64,000 nt of DNA from Dietzia sp. ANT_WB102 (GTDB lineage Bacteria; Actinomycetota; Actinomycetes; Mycobacteriales; Mycobacteriaceae), in NCBI RefSeq assembly GCF_008369165.1, contig NZ_VOBA01000001.1:992001-1056000 (forward strand), given 5' to 3'. The notes beneath the pieces were generated by a model, which saw nothing but the letters and a program-made list of their open reading frames with translations, had not been told where the DNA came from and did not search any database. Below are positions 23,894 to 26,598 of this stretch, piece after piece. Position numbers and translations under genes: made by a program. Each line of letters begins with the position of its first letter. The stretch's first letter is position 1.

Positions 23894-23928
23894 CCGCCAG
23901 CGCTGATGTCGCGGCCCCGGGAAATGCG

Positions 23929-23962
23929 GAAACCGGCCCCCGCTGAATCGGAAGCCGGTTTC
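23929..23962 (-). terminator. Terminator hairpin of small peptide cassette 1
   Basis: GAAACCGGC and GCCGGTTTC pair perfectly (9 bp) around 16 nt, 59 nt after the peptide stop. The first 15 nt (GAAACCGGCCCCCGC) are identical to the hairpin near 26247 behind the third peptide. Confidence 0.7.
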
Positions 23963-24021: not shown

Positions 24022-24180
24022 TCAGGAACCGAGGGTCTCGGTGACCTTCGAGACAAGGCCGCCGATGAAGCCGAGGACGTCGGCGAACAGGCCCGCGCCA
24101 CCGTCGACGATGTCGGAGCCGGTGTTAACAGCGTCGGAACCGGTGGCGAGACCGGGGAGGAAAGTTTCGATGGAACCCAT
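24022..24180 (-). CDS. Porin-like small acidic peptide 1 (52 residues)
   Basis: A 52-residue peptide with no signal sequence, no Cys, Trp, Arg or His. It starts MGSIETFLPGLATGSDAVN, has a central Gly/Asp segment (NTGSDIVDGGAG) and then a helix-like hydrophobic run (LFADVLGFIGGLVSK), ending TLGS. Charge is about -5. Size, acidity and lack of signal match corynebacterial PorA/PorH, which assemble cation-selective channels in the mycomembrane and are O-mycoloylated on Ser. The GS at the end is reminiscent of the penultimate Ser of PorH. The mRNA has a hairpin 21 nt before the ATG, and CGAAAGGA as RBS. The similarity is in design, not proven homology. Confidence 0.72.
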   Translation of the reverse strand: MGSIETFLPGLATGSDAVNTGSDIVDGGAGLFADVLGFIGGLVSKVTETLGS

Positions 24181-24201
24181 GTGATGGTCCTTTCGTCATG
24201 G

Positions 24202-24219
24202 GCGGCGCGGGTGCGCCGC
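24202..24219 (-). promoter_or_regulatory. 5' UTR hairpin of small peptide cassette 1
   Basis: GCGGCGC and GCGCCGC form a 7-bp stem with a 4-nt loop, 21 nt before the ATG and just ahead of the RBS. A matching hairpin precedes each of the other two peptides, suggesting 5' stabilisation of short mRNAs. Confidence 0.55.
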
Positions 24220-24450
24220 TCGGTGCAGTGAAATTCTCGGCACGCCATAGGGCCAGCCGAGAACTCCAGACAGGACGTTACGGGTGAGTTCCGACAACGT
24301 CATCCATAGGTACGGAAAGAAAGCAGAAACCGGGCACGGAAATCTTTATCTGGGCACTTGAGAGCGAGGAATGATATTCATGTGAGATACGCCTCACGTC
24401 GCAAGGGTCCTGGCGGTGGTCGTTAGCTATGGCTGTTTACTTGAAATGCA
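24220..24450. other. Intergenic region between peptide cassettes 1 and 2
   Basis: This lower-GC stretch should contain the promoter for peptide 1 (minus strand). I see no open frame of note and no box pair convincing enough to mark. GTGAG-ATACGC-CTCAC at 24383-24398 is a small inverted repeat of unknown meaning. Confidence 0.4.
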
Positions 24451-24490
24451 TTGCGCCGGCACCCGCCCCGAAGGGTGGATGCCGGCGCAA
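24451..24490 (-). terminator. Terminator hairpin of small peptide cassette 2
   Basis: TTGCGCCGGCA and TGCCGGCGCAA pair perfectly over 11 bp around 18 nt, 47 nt behind the stop. It is followed on the minus strand by a T-containing stretch. Confidence 0.75.
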
Positions 24491-24502
24491 TGAGAACCGG
24501 TC

Positions 24503-24518
24503 AGCGGGCTAGCCCGCT
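24503..24518. repeat. Perfect 16-bp palindrome behind peptide 2
   Basis: AGCGGGCTAGCCCGCT reads the same on both strands. It sits between the peptide 2 stop (24538) and the terminator. It could help end transcription or be a protein-binding site. Confidence 0.6.
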
Positions 24519-24537
24519 AGTTGGTCAGAAGCTCAAA

Positions 24538-24693
24538 TCACTCACCGATGATGGAGCCCGAGATGACGTCGTAGACGTTGTTGGCGGCGTCCGAGCCGGT
24601 GGTAAGGAAGCCCTCGGCGGCGGTCGAGCCAGCGGAGACGAAGCCGTCGAAGATGCTGAAGATGTTGGCGATGATATCGGAGACGGAACCCAT
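24538..24693 (-). CDS. Porin-like small acidic peptide 2 (51 residues)
   Basis: A 51-residue peptide starting MGSVSDIIANIFSIFDGFVS, with a middle AGSTAAEGFLTTGSDAAN and the end NVYDVISGSIIGE. It has no Lys, Arg, His or Cys and a charge near -6. It shares with peptide 1 the MGS start, a TGSDA motif and repeated Ser/Gly/Asp separated by hydrophobic residues, so the two are probably paralogues. The RBS (CGAAAGGGG) is nearly the same, and a 7-bp hairpin precedes it by 22 nt. As with PorA and PorH, two short acidic peptides encoded next to each other could form a hetero-oligomeric mycomembrane channel. Confidence 0.72.
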   Translation of the reverse strand: MGSVSDIIANIFSIFDGFVSAGSTAAEGFLTTGSDAANNVYDVISGSIIGE

Positions 24694-24715
24694 TTGGGAA
24701 CCCCTTTCGTTAGTG

Positions 24716-24734
24716 GCGACGCCTTGTGCGTCGC
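24716..24734 (-). promoter_or_regulatory. 5' UTR hairpin of small peptide cassette 2
   Basis: GCGACGC and GCGTCGC form a 7-bp stem with loop CTTGT (plus-strand sense), 22 nt before the ATG. Confidence 0.55.
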
Positions 24735-25003
24735 TGCGTGGTGCAGTCCTGCTTACGGACTCGTGAAGTTCATCTCGAACTCGTCACCGAACGTTACTAA
24801 CGGGGTCCACATCGTCACTTGGAGAAGCATTTTTGCCCGCAATGTCGGATGGATAACAACTTATTGTCGCAGCTAAGTGTGCCCCATACCCTTATGGTGT
24901 TATCCCCATCACATTCGTGTAGCGTGCCGGCTCGGCCACCGCAGTGCGAGTGATTTCGGCGACGGGATTCCCCGACGGGGTGTGTCGGGGGAGAATGGGG
25001 CGC
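24735..25003. other. Divergent intergenic region between peptide 2 and argJ
   Basis: About 270 nt with the lowest GC in this part. It must carry the promoter of peptide 2 (minus) and of argJ (plus). Runs such as ATAACAACTTATTG near 24852 are AT-rich, but I cannot assign -35 and -10 boxes with confidence. Confidence 0.4.
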
Positions 25004-26215
25004 ATGACGCCGCACGCCACCCACGCTCCCGAGTCGATTCCGCTGCCGCCGGGCTTTCGCGCCCACGCCGGAGCTGCAGGGCTCCGCGGGGAGGGTGACG
25101 ACGTCTTTGTCGTCGTCAACGACGGTCCCGCGCCCGCCTCATCGGCGGTGTTCACCCGCTCCCTGTTCGCCGGACCCTCGGTCGTGCTCAGTCGCGCCAA
25201 CGCCGCCAGTGGCCGGGCCCGCGGCGTCGTGGTGGTTGCGAAGAACGCCAACGTCGCTACTGGGGAGCAGGGCATGGCCGATGCGCGCGAGGTGCTCGAG
25301 CACGCCGCCGATGCGGTCGGGGCGACGCCGGAGGAGATGCTCATCGCCTCCACCGGCGTCATCGGTCGGCGCTACCCGATGGATCTACTGCGCTCGCACC
25401 TCGACGGGCTGGCCGGCGCGGAGTTCAACGCTGACGCGGTCGCCCTGGCCACCGCCATGATGACCACCGACACCCATCCCAAGACGGCGCGCATGGAGGT
25501 GACGACGACGACGGGCGGCACCGCCGAGGTGGTGGGCATCGCCAAGGGCGTCGGAATGATCGAGCCAGACATGGCCACAATGATCGCCGTGCTTTTCACC
25601 GATGCTGCAGTGGAGCCAACCATGCTGGACACCGCGTTCAGGGCCGCGGTGGACGAGACCTTCAATTGCCTGTCCGTCGACACCGACACCTCGACCTCGG
25701 ACACCGCGATCGCCCTGGCCAGCGGGTCCGGCGACCCAGTGGGAGAGGCGGAACTCCGTGAGGCGTTCGAGGCGGTCTGTCTGGACCTGACCCGCCAGCT
25801 GGCCCGCGACGGCGAGGGTGCCACCAAGCTCCTGACCGTCGAGGTGACCGGGGGGCGCGACCGCGACCAGGCCAAGCGCGTGGCCAAGGCGATCCTCAAC
25901 TCGCCGCTGGTCAAGACTGCCGTGCACGGCGCCGATCCCAACTGGGGTCGGGTCGCGATGGCGATCGGCAAGTGCCACGACGACACCGACATCGACCCCG
26001 AGCGGGTGCGCATCGTGTTCGGCGACCTCGAAACCTATCCCGCGTTCCCCGGCGAGGCCGAACTCGAACGGCTCACCGAGATCATGCAGGCTGAGGAGGT
26101 CACCATCTCGGTCGACCTCGGTGTCGGGGGCGGGATGGGCGACGGGACCTGCACCGTCTATGGCTGCGACCTCACCCGCGAGTACATCGCCATCAACGCC
26201 GACTACACGACGTGA
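25004..26215 (+). CDS. argJ: Bifunctional ornithine acetyltransferase / N-acetylglutamate synthase
   Basis: A 403-residue autoprocessing Ntn-type enzyme that moves acetyl between N-acetylornithine and glutamate in arginine synthesis. The cleavage site is KGVGMIEPDMATMIAVLFTDA, with Thr192 of the MATM motif as the new N-terminal nucleophile. STGVIGRRYPMD forms the oxyanion part, and DGEGATKLL and VHGADPNWGRVAMAIG are also typical. No other arg gene is near, whereas argJ usually sits in argCJBD. It could be the only copy, or a second OAT-like paralogue. ATG 25004 is chosen. ATG 24995, 3 nt after GGGGGAGA, is an equally possible start. Confidence 0.9.
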   Translation: MTPHATHAPESIPLPPGFRAHAGAAGLRGEGDDVFVVVNDGPAPASSAVFTRSLFAGPSVVLSRANAASGRARGVVVVAKNANVATGEQGMADAREVLEHAADAVGATPEEMLIASTGVIGRRYPMDLLRSHLDGLAGAEFNADAVALATAMMTTDTHPKTARMEVTTTTGGTAEVVGIAKGVGMIEPDMATMIAVLFTDAAVEPTMLDTAFRAAVDETFNCLSVDTDTSTSDTAIALASGSGDPVGEAELREAFEAVCLDLTRQLARDGEGATKLLTVEVTGGRDRDQAKRVAKAILNSPLVKTAVHGADPNWGRVAMAIGKCHDDTDIDPERVRIVFGDLETYPAFPGEAELERLTEIMQAEEVTISVDLGVGGGMGDGTCTVYGCDLTREYIAINADYTT

Positions 26216-26246
26216 GCCTCTGACCTTGGGCCCGACCTGGGCACTG

Positions 26247-26280
26247 GAAACCGGCCCCCGCACTGCGGGAGCCGGTTCTG
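26247..26280. terminator. Bidirectional terminator between argJ and peptide 3
   Basis: AACCGGC (26249-26255) pairs with GCCGGTT (26271-26277), with an inner CCCGC/GCGGG stem. It serves argJ on the plus strand and the third peptide on the minus strand (60 nt behind its stop). Its first 15 nt equal the terminator at 23929. Confidence 0.75.
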
Positions 26281-26337
26281 TCGTCATTCGAGAGGGCCCA
26301 GGTTGCGTCTGGTTACGCATGCTGGGCCTTCGCCGAC

Positions 26338-26451
26338 TCAGGAACCCATCGCCAAGAAGTAGTTCGCCAAATTATGCATTGCCCACTCGAATCCGGACGA
26401 ACCTAAGGCGCCGACAGAGTTGCCAATTGCCCACAGCAAACTTGAGAGCAT
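26338..26451 (-). CDS. Porin-like small hydrophobic peptide 3 (37 residues)
   Basis: A 37-residue peptide, MLSSLLWAIGNSVGALGSSG followed by FEWAMHNLANYFLAMGS. It has one Glu, one His, no Lys or Arg, no signal sequence, and ends GS like peptide 1. It is shorter and more hydrophobic than peptides 1 and 2, closer to PorA (45 residues) in style. RBS GGAAGGAAA is strong, a 6-bp hairpin lies 19 nt before the ATG, and a TTGAAC-17-TACCAT promoter fits upstream. The shared terminator sequence and layout tie it to the other two cassettes. Confidence 0.68.
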   Translation of the reverse strand: MLSSLLWAIGNSVGALGSSGFEWAMHNLANYFLAMGS

Positions 26452-26470
26452 GAGCTTTCCTTCCCCCAGA

Positions 26471-26491
26471 GGCGGCACCGGTTGCGCCGCC
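26471..26491 (-). promoter_or_regulatory. 5' UTR hairpin of small peptide cassette 3
   Basis: GGCGGC and GCCGCC form a 6-bp stem with a 9-nt loop, 19 nt before the ATG at 26451. Confidence 0.5.
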
Positions 26492-26547
26492 CTCGTTACG
26501 GGTTCGAGGTGAATTTGGTCACTTAATCGCTCCGTGCCCGTATGGAT

Positions 26548-26576
26548 ATGGTAATGGGGCATAGCAAAGGGTTCAA
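26548..26576 (-). promoter_or_regulatory. Promoter of small peptide cassette 3
   Basis: On the minus strand TTGAAC (26576-26571), a 17-nt spacer and TACCAT (26553-26548) give a good actinobacterial promoter with a 5' UTR of about 90 nt. An inverted repeat TGTGAC / GTCACA with a 5-nt centre (26582-26598) lies directly upstream of the -35, where an activator would bind. Confidence 0.55.
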
Positions 26577-26598
26577 TAGGCTGTGACAAACAGTCACA

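Follow-up and report, generated by a model that had tools for sequence, protein, structure and literature searches.

Two neighbouring short genes of Dietzia sp. ANT_WB102, here called g1 and g2, are best read as structural genes of the mycomembrane, whose peptides would work like PorA, PorH and ProtX of Corynebacterium; this reading is given a probability of about 0.62. They lie in a stretch of 64,000 nucleotides (the window; positions 992,001 to 1,056,000 of contig NZ_VOBA01000001.1, assembly GCF_008369165.1), from a genome of 3.28 Mb in 4 contigs. Both are conserved coding genes, beyond what chance would give; they are not claimed as members of the PorA or PorH families, and the similarity tests failed. 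The mycomembrane reading is proposed because of the small size and acidity of the peptides, their lack of Arg and Cys, the link with sigma-D, the lack of MspA matches in Dietzia and nine matches to PF00756 (E<=1.1e-16) in the same genome; mycoloyltransferases belong to PF00756, and not all nine need be such enzymes. A preliminary description of this DNA had taken three minus-strand frames for a porin set of PorA/PorH type; for g1 and g2 this holds as the best reading, strengthened by promoter and family, and the third, frame g3, is a candidate gene only. The frames and the gene that lies among them are the following.

24022 to 24180, minus strand: g1, gene for an acidic peptide of 52 amino acids whose GS motifs contain Ser15 and Ser22; conserved in Dietzia, beside argJ, and favoured by the substitution-placement test
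24538 to 24693, minus strand: g2, gene for an acidic peptide of 51 amino acids with two GS motifs; conserved, beside argJ in 10/13 relatives, and favoured by the same test
26338 to 26451, minus strand: frame g3, candidate frame of 37 amino acids laid out like g1 and g2 (5' hairpin, 16-nt 3' identity with g1)
25004 to 26215, plus strand: argJ, an ordinary conserved neighbour (Pfam ArgJ, E=2.4e-125); its open reading frame (ORF) is listed from 24944

The three frames are found where they had been placed, with the lengths claimed, and all of their peptides (P0001, P0002 and P0003) are indeed free of Arg. Those of g1 and g2 also lack Cys and are strongly acidic, as had been said, with an isoelectric point (pI) of about 4.05, six Asp or Glu each and one and no Lys or Arg, respectively; the pI of the frame g3 peptide is 5.2. 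In length, pI and composition g1 and g2 are short acidic peptides without a Sec signal, as PorA and PorH are, the absence of the signal being judged by eye from the sequence. Their peak hydropathy over 19 residues is 1.51 and 1.32. The ribosome-binding site (RBS) CGAAAGG, described earlier for two of the frames, sits before the ATG of g1 and g2; the g1 pattern, CGAAAGGR-N7-ATG, occurs once in the 64 kb, with a mean of 0.02 in shuffled sequence. No model in Pfam or NCBIfam matches the three peptides, their single match in PHROGs is at chance level (E 0.24), and the g1 peptide has no match among the plasmids and phages searched.

Conservation was followed through the Dietzia genomes. At E<=0.1, g1 matches 16 and g2 12 of the 23, their own included, counts that are partly circular as the profiles behind them included Dietzia relatives. 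In a scan of named genomes the g1 profile finds seven loci, all in Dietzia and among them D. maris IMV 195T. Seventeen regions of relatives were fetched, 16 of them chosen through a g1 match, and argJ lies within 13; in all 13, by the choice of regions fetched for g1, this gene is found upstream of argJ and in the other orientation. A g2 orthologue lies between g1 and argJ in 10 of these 13, argJ being divergent from g2, and a CGAAAGG-type RBS precedes nearly all of these genes. The argJ gene is matched in 19/23 Dietzia genomes and adjoins g1 in 14 (the own genome and the 13 above); near argJ in G001 and G015 other peptides of the family are found instead of g1, no family peptide passed the filter at the argJ locus of G022, and the tally leaves out G014 and G021. 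Conservation, which the preliminary description had wanted to see for all three frames, is thus borne out by argJ-side orthologues for g1 and g2 and fails for frame g3; nor is argJ an insert among the cassettes, as had been supposed, with g1 on one side of argJ in 13/13 regions, g2 in 10/13, and no orthologue of frame g3.

At the residue level, F7, G10, A12, G14, S15, V18, T20, G21, S22 and D26 are invariant in 14/14 g1 sequences, and both GS motifs of g2 are kept in 11/11. The coding test keeps the substitutions of each pair, shuffles their places 2000 times and compares the BLOSUM score of the true frame: it favours this frame in 13/13 g1 pairs, where at most 21 of the 2000 random placements reach the score, and in 10/10 g2 pairs, in each of which none does.

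The link with sigma-D lies in the promoters of the two genes.

24772 to 24797, minus strand: sigma-D-type promoter of g2, GTAACG-N17-GAT, the sole exact GTAACR-N17-GAT in the 64 kb
24256 to 24281, minus strand: sigma-D-like promoter of g1, with the -35 GTAACG intact and a degenerate -10, GGC (alignment, hand-counted)

GTAACR-N17-GAT agrees with the consensus published for sigma-D promoters of C. glutamicum (PMC6338062), whose sigma-D regulon is counted to include cmt1, porH and protX (PMC11175481), the first two also according to PMC5508688. Taking sigma-D as an extracytoplasmic function (ECF) factor of group ECF40, with -35 GTAAC(A/G) and -10 GAT, g2 agrees exactly and the g1 of the window does not. 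In the leader alignment GTAACG and GAT are spaced 17 nt, and GTARCN-N16-18-GAT is also found upstream of 9/10 g2 orthologues and, at the same place, in 7/12 distinct g1 orthologue leaders. Within 220 nt the strict site occurs in 21/52 distinct family leaders of Dietzia (sequences, not events, since orthologues are non-independent) versus 0/353 control ORFs, in 2/11 Corynebacterium-type porA/porH leaders and in 0/7 leaders of genus g22, which is discussed below; the looser form gives 24/52, 5/353, 2/11 and 2/7, respectively. The set comprised 53 Dietzia and 12 Corynebacterium-type leaders, less one duplicate each, and the controls, here and for hairpin energy, are mechanical ORFs of at least 150 amino acids, some of which are surely not genes.

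The own genome contains 16 exact sites, whereas the reversed motif occurs 3 times. When one mismatch is tolerated, the window holds 9 sites versus 8.97 expected, which is the chance level. The genes that follow exact sites include g2, a PF00756 protein (L080), an ECF factor (L085), a fabD-like gene (L086) that scores under its cut-off, and several proteins with signal-peptide-like starts. L085 scores 273.9 to the NCBIfam model ShbA (cut-off 209), which covers SigD; GTAACA-N17-GAT stands just upstream of this SigD/ShbA-type sigma gene (G000:C2:50621), which suggests that it is autoregulated. One site is 420 nt upstream of a match to PF00756, and the link is weak because no gene start was found within 400 nt. 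The sites at L074, L082, L087 and L088 look intragenic, and after the one at L083 a P450 comes some way further on. A further sigma-D-type site (L079, G000:C1:1193489) lies upstream of a protein with a signal of the SipW-dependent type.

Between promoter and RBS the leaders fold into hairpins, and each frame is followed by another hairpin.

24202 to 24219, minus strand: leader hairpin of g1, with its end 22 nt from the ATG; compensatory changes across 25 leaders
24716 to 24734, minus strand: leader hairpin of g2, with its end 23 nt from the ATG; compensatory changes across 25 leaders
26466 to 26495, minus strand: hairpin upstream of frame g3, from the fold only, with no relatives for comparison
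23930 to 23961, minus strand: 3' hairpin of g1, with no T run (sequence and alignment, hand-counted)
24453 to 24488, minus strand: 3' hairpin of g2 (sequence and alignment, hand-counted)
26249 to 26277, minus strand: 3' hairpin of frame g3 (sequence, hand-counted)

The hairpin just upstream of the RBS is conserved in the g1 and g2 leaders. Covariation was more telling here than folding energy: across 25 g1/g2-type leaders, 98.3% of the cells of the 7-bp stem are paired; both sides have changed at 4 of the 7 stem pairs, versus 1.7 in shuffles (17/500 shuffles reach this), and in 12 cells versus 2.0. The 5' hairpins had been placed 19-22 nt before the ATG; they are present, at somewhat different distances, 22 for g1, 23 for g2 and, for frame g3, -15 for the longest fold and -20 for the core stem by hand count. 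Leaders of porH have a comparable arrangement: in 6/6 fetched from genomes of genus g3 (taken as Corynebacterium for their PorH and PorA) a hairpin lies just upstream of the RBS, its energy ranging from -8.9 to -15.2 kcal/mol, and among all 12 porA/porH leaders 6 reach -9 kcal/mol or below, versus 7/60 shuffled ones. The 3' hairpins described earlier are likewise all present, but do not qualify as intrinsic terminators of the classical type: between 23900 and 26800 no such terminator with a T run was found (shuffle mean 2.0). Those of g1 and frame g3 do have a common start, of exactly 16 nt where 15 had been claimed, at 23928 and 26246 on the plus strand; for such a repeat with up to two mismatches the shuffle mean is 0.26. 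It may reflect a cassette duplication or a terminator repeat found throughout the genome, the comparison being within the window. Rfam gave two matches, both far under the cut-off (best E 0.13).

The known system that g1 and g2 resemble most in outline is PorA/PorH of Corynebacterium, a two-peptide mycomembrane channel O-mycoloylated by MytC/Cmt1. These peptides are also acidic and of about 40-57 amino acids, have no evident Sec signal and are encoded by short adjoining genes; three Corynebacterium-type PorH/PorA peptides lack Arg and Cys as well, porH belongs to the sigma-D regulon and has the leader hairpin described above, and MspA is not found in two PorH-bearing genomes of genus g3, as in Dietzia. 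On the other hand, g1 and g2 have no detectable sequence similarity to them, possess GS motifs and a leader and 3' hairpin of their own for each gene, and lie beside argJ, whereas the corynebacterial genes are located between groEL2 and the gene of a PKK2 polyphosphate kinase (PMC5944148). ProtX of C. glutamicum is named as a further analogue.

Surface assembly of C. glutamicum PorH requires mycoloylation of at least one partner, and PorA-PorH has been modelled as a helical hetero-oligomer (PMC12632848). O-mycoloylation takes place on Ser, less often on Thr, amid Gly, Ala and Ser, with no strict motif (PMC11066868); Ser15 and Ser22, invariant in 14/14 g1 sequences, are only compatible with it. 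In PorA, Ser15 lies in the linker between helices (PMC11927696), and the equal number of the invariant GS-motif Ser15 of g1 is taken as coincidence.

MspA-type porins, which are large Sec-exported beta-barrels, unlike g1 and g2, would answer the same presumed need, the passage of solutes through the mycomembrane. Their family PF09203 has no match in any of the 23 Dietzia genomes, nor in the two genus g3 genomes; it matches 8/8 tested genomes outside these two genera. Dietzia is said to contain channels of the MspA superfamily (PMC9233653, 2022); the Dietzia search gives this no support, and the gene of that channel may need re-examination.

Several results weigh against the mycomembrane reading, besides the partial circularity of the genome counts. 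The likeness to PorA/PorH proposed earlier was looked for in the sequences and not found: a PorH sequence matches 4/401 genomes, all of genus g3, and 0/23 Dietzia, and hhalign of the profiles against PorH and PorA gives E 0.03-0.43, no similarity; this failure is to be taken with caution, because even between PorA and PorH the match is weak (E 0.0036, probability 9%). Predicted structures of g1 and g2 are uninformative, single uninterrupted helices of modest confidence, at a predicted local distance difference test score (pLDDT) of 70 and 72 and a predicted template modelling score (pTM) of 0.30 and 0.40; g1 is modestly amphipathic, 21/500 shuffles reaching the same value, and a search of solved structures returned nothing meaningful for PorH or the g1 profile. 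As to the promoters, the -10 of the window g1 is degenerate and does not match the pattern, 31/52 Dietzia family leaders, whole subfamilies included, lack the strict site, and porH and protX are not mentioned in the consensus source (PMC6338062). Hairpins at or below -9 kcal/mol are found in 42/53 Dietzia family leaders versus 104/178 controls (p=0.001), a mild separation, and hairpin energy is no different from controls in g22 (p=0.40) and in Corynebacterium-type loci (p=0.39, with 2 control genes); the likeness between Dietzia and porH leaders is therefore suggestive.

A further such point concerns the coding evidence. The preliminary description had itself named equal rates of synonymous and nonsynonymous change as contrary to its proposal, and the ratio of nonsynonymous to synonymous differences (pN/pS) is indeed close to 1: over all 91 pairs of g1 it is 0.85, and over all 55 pairs of g2, 1.09. 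Read in its other frames, this DNA gives 0.68-1.48, and the true frame is thus not singled out; pN/pS (dN/dS) was of no use as a coding test, and the substitution-placement test was applied beside it. Values near 1 are likely due to codon bias: in g1 and g2 together, Val is GTC or GTT in 9/9 codons versus 100/187 in five neighbour genes, and Gly is GGC or GGT in 18/18 versus 113/172 (hand-summed).

The literature matches listed on Dietzia porins and mycomembrane, small helical porins of Rhodococcus and Nocardia porins, taken by title and beginning of abstract and with few subscription papers among them, contain no description of such peptides, and the words porin, channel and mycoloyl are absent from the main text of a paper on the Dietzia vesicle proteome (PMC8027190).

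The two genes belong to a wider family. At E<=0.001 a profile of 25 sequences matches 20/23 Dietzia genomes, many of them already represented in it, and 3/378 other genomes of the GTDB family. In Dietzia the peptides are diversified, of 39-62 residues and often in tandem; subfamilies read from the loci include tandem MGSLATLAAGSAEFALDSGST peptides and the M-SDFWYGLS-GSADLVPNVGSAAIDGLL type, the paralogues elsewhere have varied neighbours, and a fourth copy in the own genome lies at G000:C1:1834575. In G022 three similar 39-mers stand in a row (L102), each with its own GTAACG...GAT at -135 to -139, the spacing being 17 in two copies and 18 in one. At L138:2712-6578, tandem MGSLATLAAGS peptides are found between an ECF-like sigma gene and the gene of an AMP-binding enzyme; they have no sigma-D motif, and the neighbouring factor might therefore be theirs.

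The three genomes outside Dietzia all belong to genus g22, probably Nocardia, and have one or three peptides each, of 37-44 residues; one such peptide is 78.8% identical over 33 residues to a match in Nocardia farcinica NCTC 11134. A g22 profile (alignment A8), supplied by three g22 genomes and with no Dietzia sequence, matches 45/401 genomes, namely 41 of g22, two of g19, one of g14 and one Dietzia, whose match is a g2 (E 3.6e-5). By comparison of profiles, g1 is linked to g22 (E 7e-5, probability 63%) and to g2 (E 5e-5, probability 68%). The g22 peptides (MIPVIIDTGSAALNG..., alignment A8) are acidic, carry a TGS motif and in some cases occur two or three in a row, like those of Dietzia. GTAACN-N17-GAT is found at -78 to -81 in 15/20 g22-type loci; different from Dietzia are the sixth base, C or T in all 15, and the presence of MspA in the three g22 genomes tested. 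The Nocardia farcinica match (L188, NZ_LN868939.1, at 2363681) belongs to a record of 2.66 Mb that is labelled as a plasmid and has 2 listed features in PLSDB.

Other explanations of g1 and g2 have to be weighed. Peptides of the mycomembrane or cell surface that form no pore, a lipidated coat, spacer or surfactant-like layer shaping the surface (as ProtX might be), are an unlikely alternative with several facts on its side: the many paralogues and tandem copies, the acidic Gly/Ser-rich composition with modest amphipathicity, and a sigma-D link that needs no pore. However, g1 and g2 are paired in 10/13 regions and MspA is not found in Dietzia, so that a need for a channel is plausible. That the peptides are secreted as leaderless bacteriocins, signals or small toxins is improbable; g1 and g2 are short, hydrophobic, multi-copy and without evident leader, which would suit this, but they are acidic, Arg- and Cys-free, have sigma-D-type promoters and a conserved place beside argJ, and six proteins scanned in the neighbourhood, among which are nitronate monooxygenase, Polyketide_cyc2 and ArgJ, are all ordinary, no search aimed at toxins or bacteriocins being made. 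A role as small subunits or regulators of some enzyme in the inner membrane is quite improbable: their hydrophobic stretches (maxima 1.51 and 1.32) could be a membrane helix, but no enzyme is a constant partner except argJ, divergent from g2, and paralogues elsewhere have other neighbours. Chance frames within a conserved leader or regulatory RNA, which the missing synonymous excess and the conserved hairpins would allow and which suits frame g3 best in its lack of orthologues, are very improbable for g1 and g2 in view of the substitution-placement test, the RBS before them and their orthologues, the biased codons and the absence of an Rfam family above cut-off.

Frame g3 is a candidate gene only. 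Outside the own genome its peptide has only weak matches, the best at E 0.14, and no orthologue was found in the fetched argJ regions; its match to the 25-sequence profile is circular, P0003 being part of it. When the 1079 frame segments of the window are searched with a profile built without it, frame g3 scores E=5, versus 7e-25 and 6e-10 for g1 and g2, both of which were inside the profile, and its codon use is unlike theirs. The layout is nevertheless retained, with hairpin, RBS and a 3' hairpin that begins with the 16 nt of g1, and frame g3 may therefore be a decayed or a young copy of the cassette. Two Dietzia genomes have a third family gene in the argJ region, on the same side as g1 (L041:4781-4921 and L134:2466-2606), with GTAACA-N17-GAT at -124 and no demonstrable orthology to frame g3.

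If g1 and g2 are mycomembrane genes of this type, a SigD-type ECF sigma factor would transcribe them together with other genes for the mycomembrane, and their abundant peptides would cross the inner membrane by the route of PorA and PorH themselves. They are probably mycoloylated, presumably on the Ser of the GS motifs, and would lie as helices within the mycomembrane; g1 and g2 would possibly assemble into an oligomeric channel in place of MspA, the least certain and least supported step. A broader proposal is rather doubtful as a whole, namely a miniature mycomembrane family across at least Dietzia and probably Nocardia, with sigma-D-type promoters, a porH-like 5' hairpin cassette in Dietzia, expansions and tandems that differ by species, GS serines as mycolate anchors, and the role of main Dietzia channel in the place of MspA.

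The passage of solutes through the outer membrane is poorly known in mycolic-acid bacteria beyond Corynebacterium and Mycobacterium, and Dietzia is apparently without MspA. Short peptides without a signal are easily missed by annotation, and the layout of promoter and leader provides a handle for a genome-wide search for such genes. The family also offers comparison sets for two questions that are open in the Corynebacterium papers, how these peptides cross the inner membrane and which serine is chosen as the mycoloylation site.

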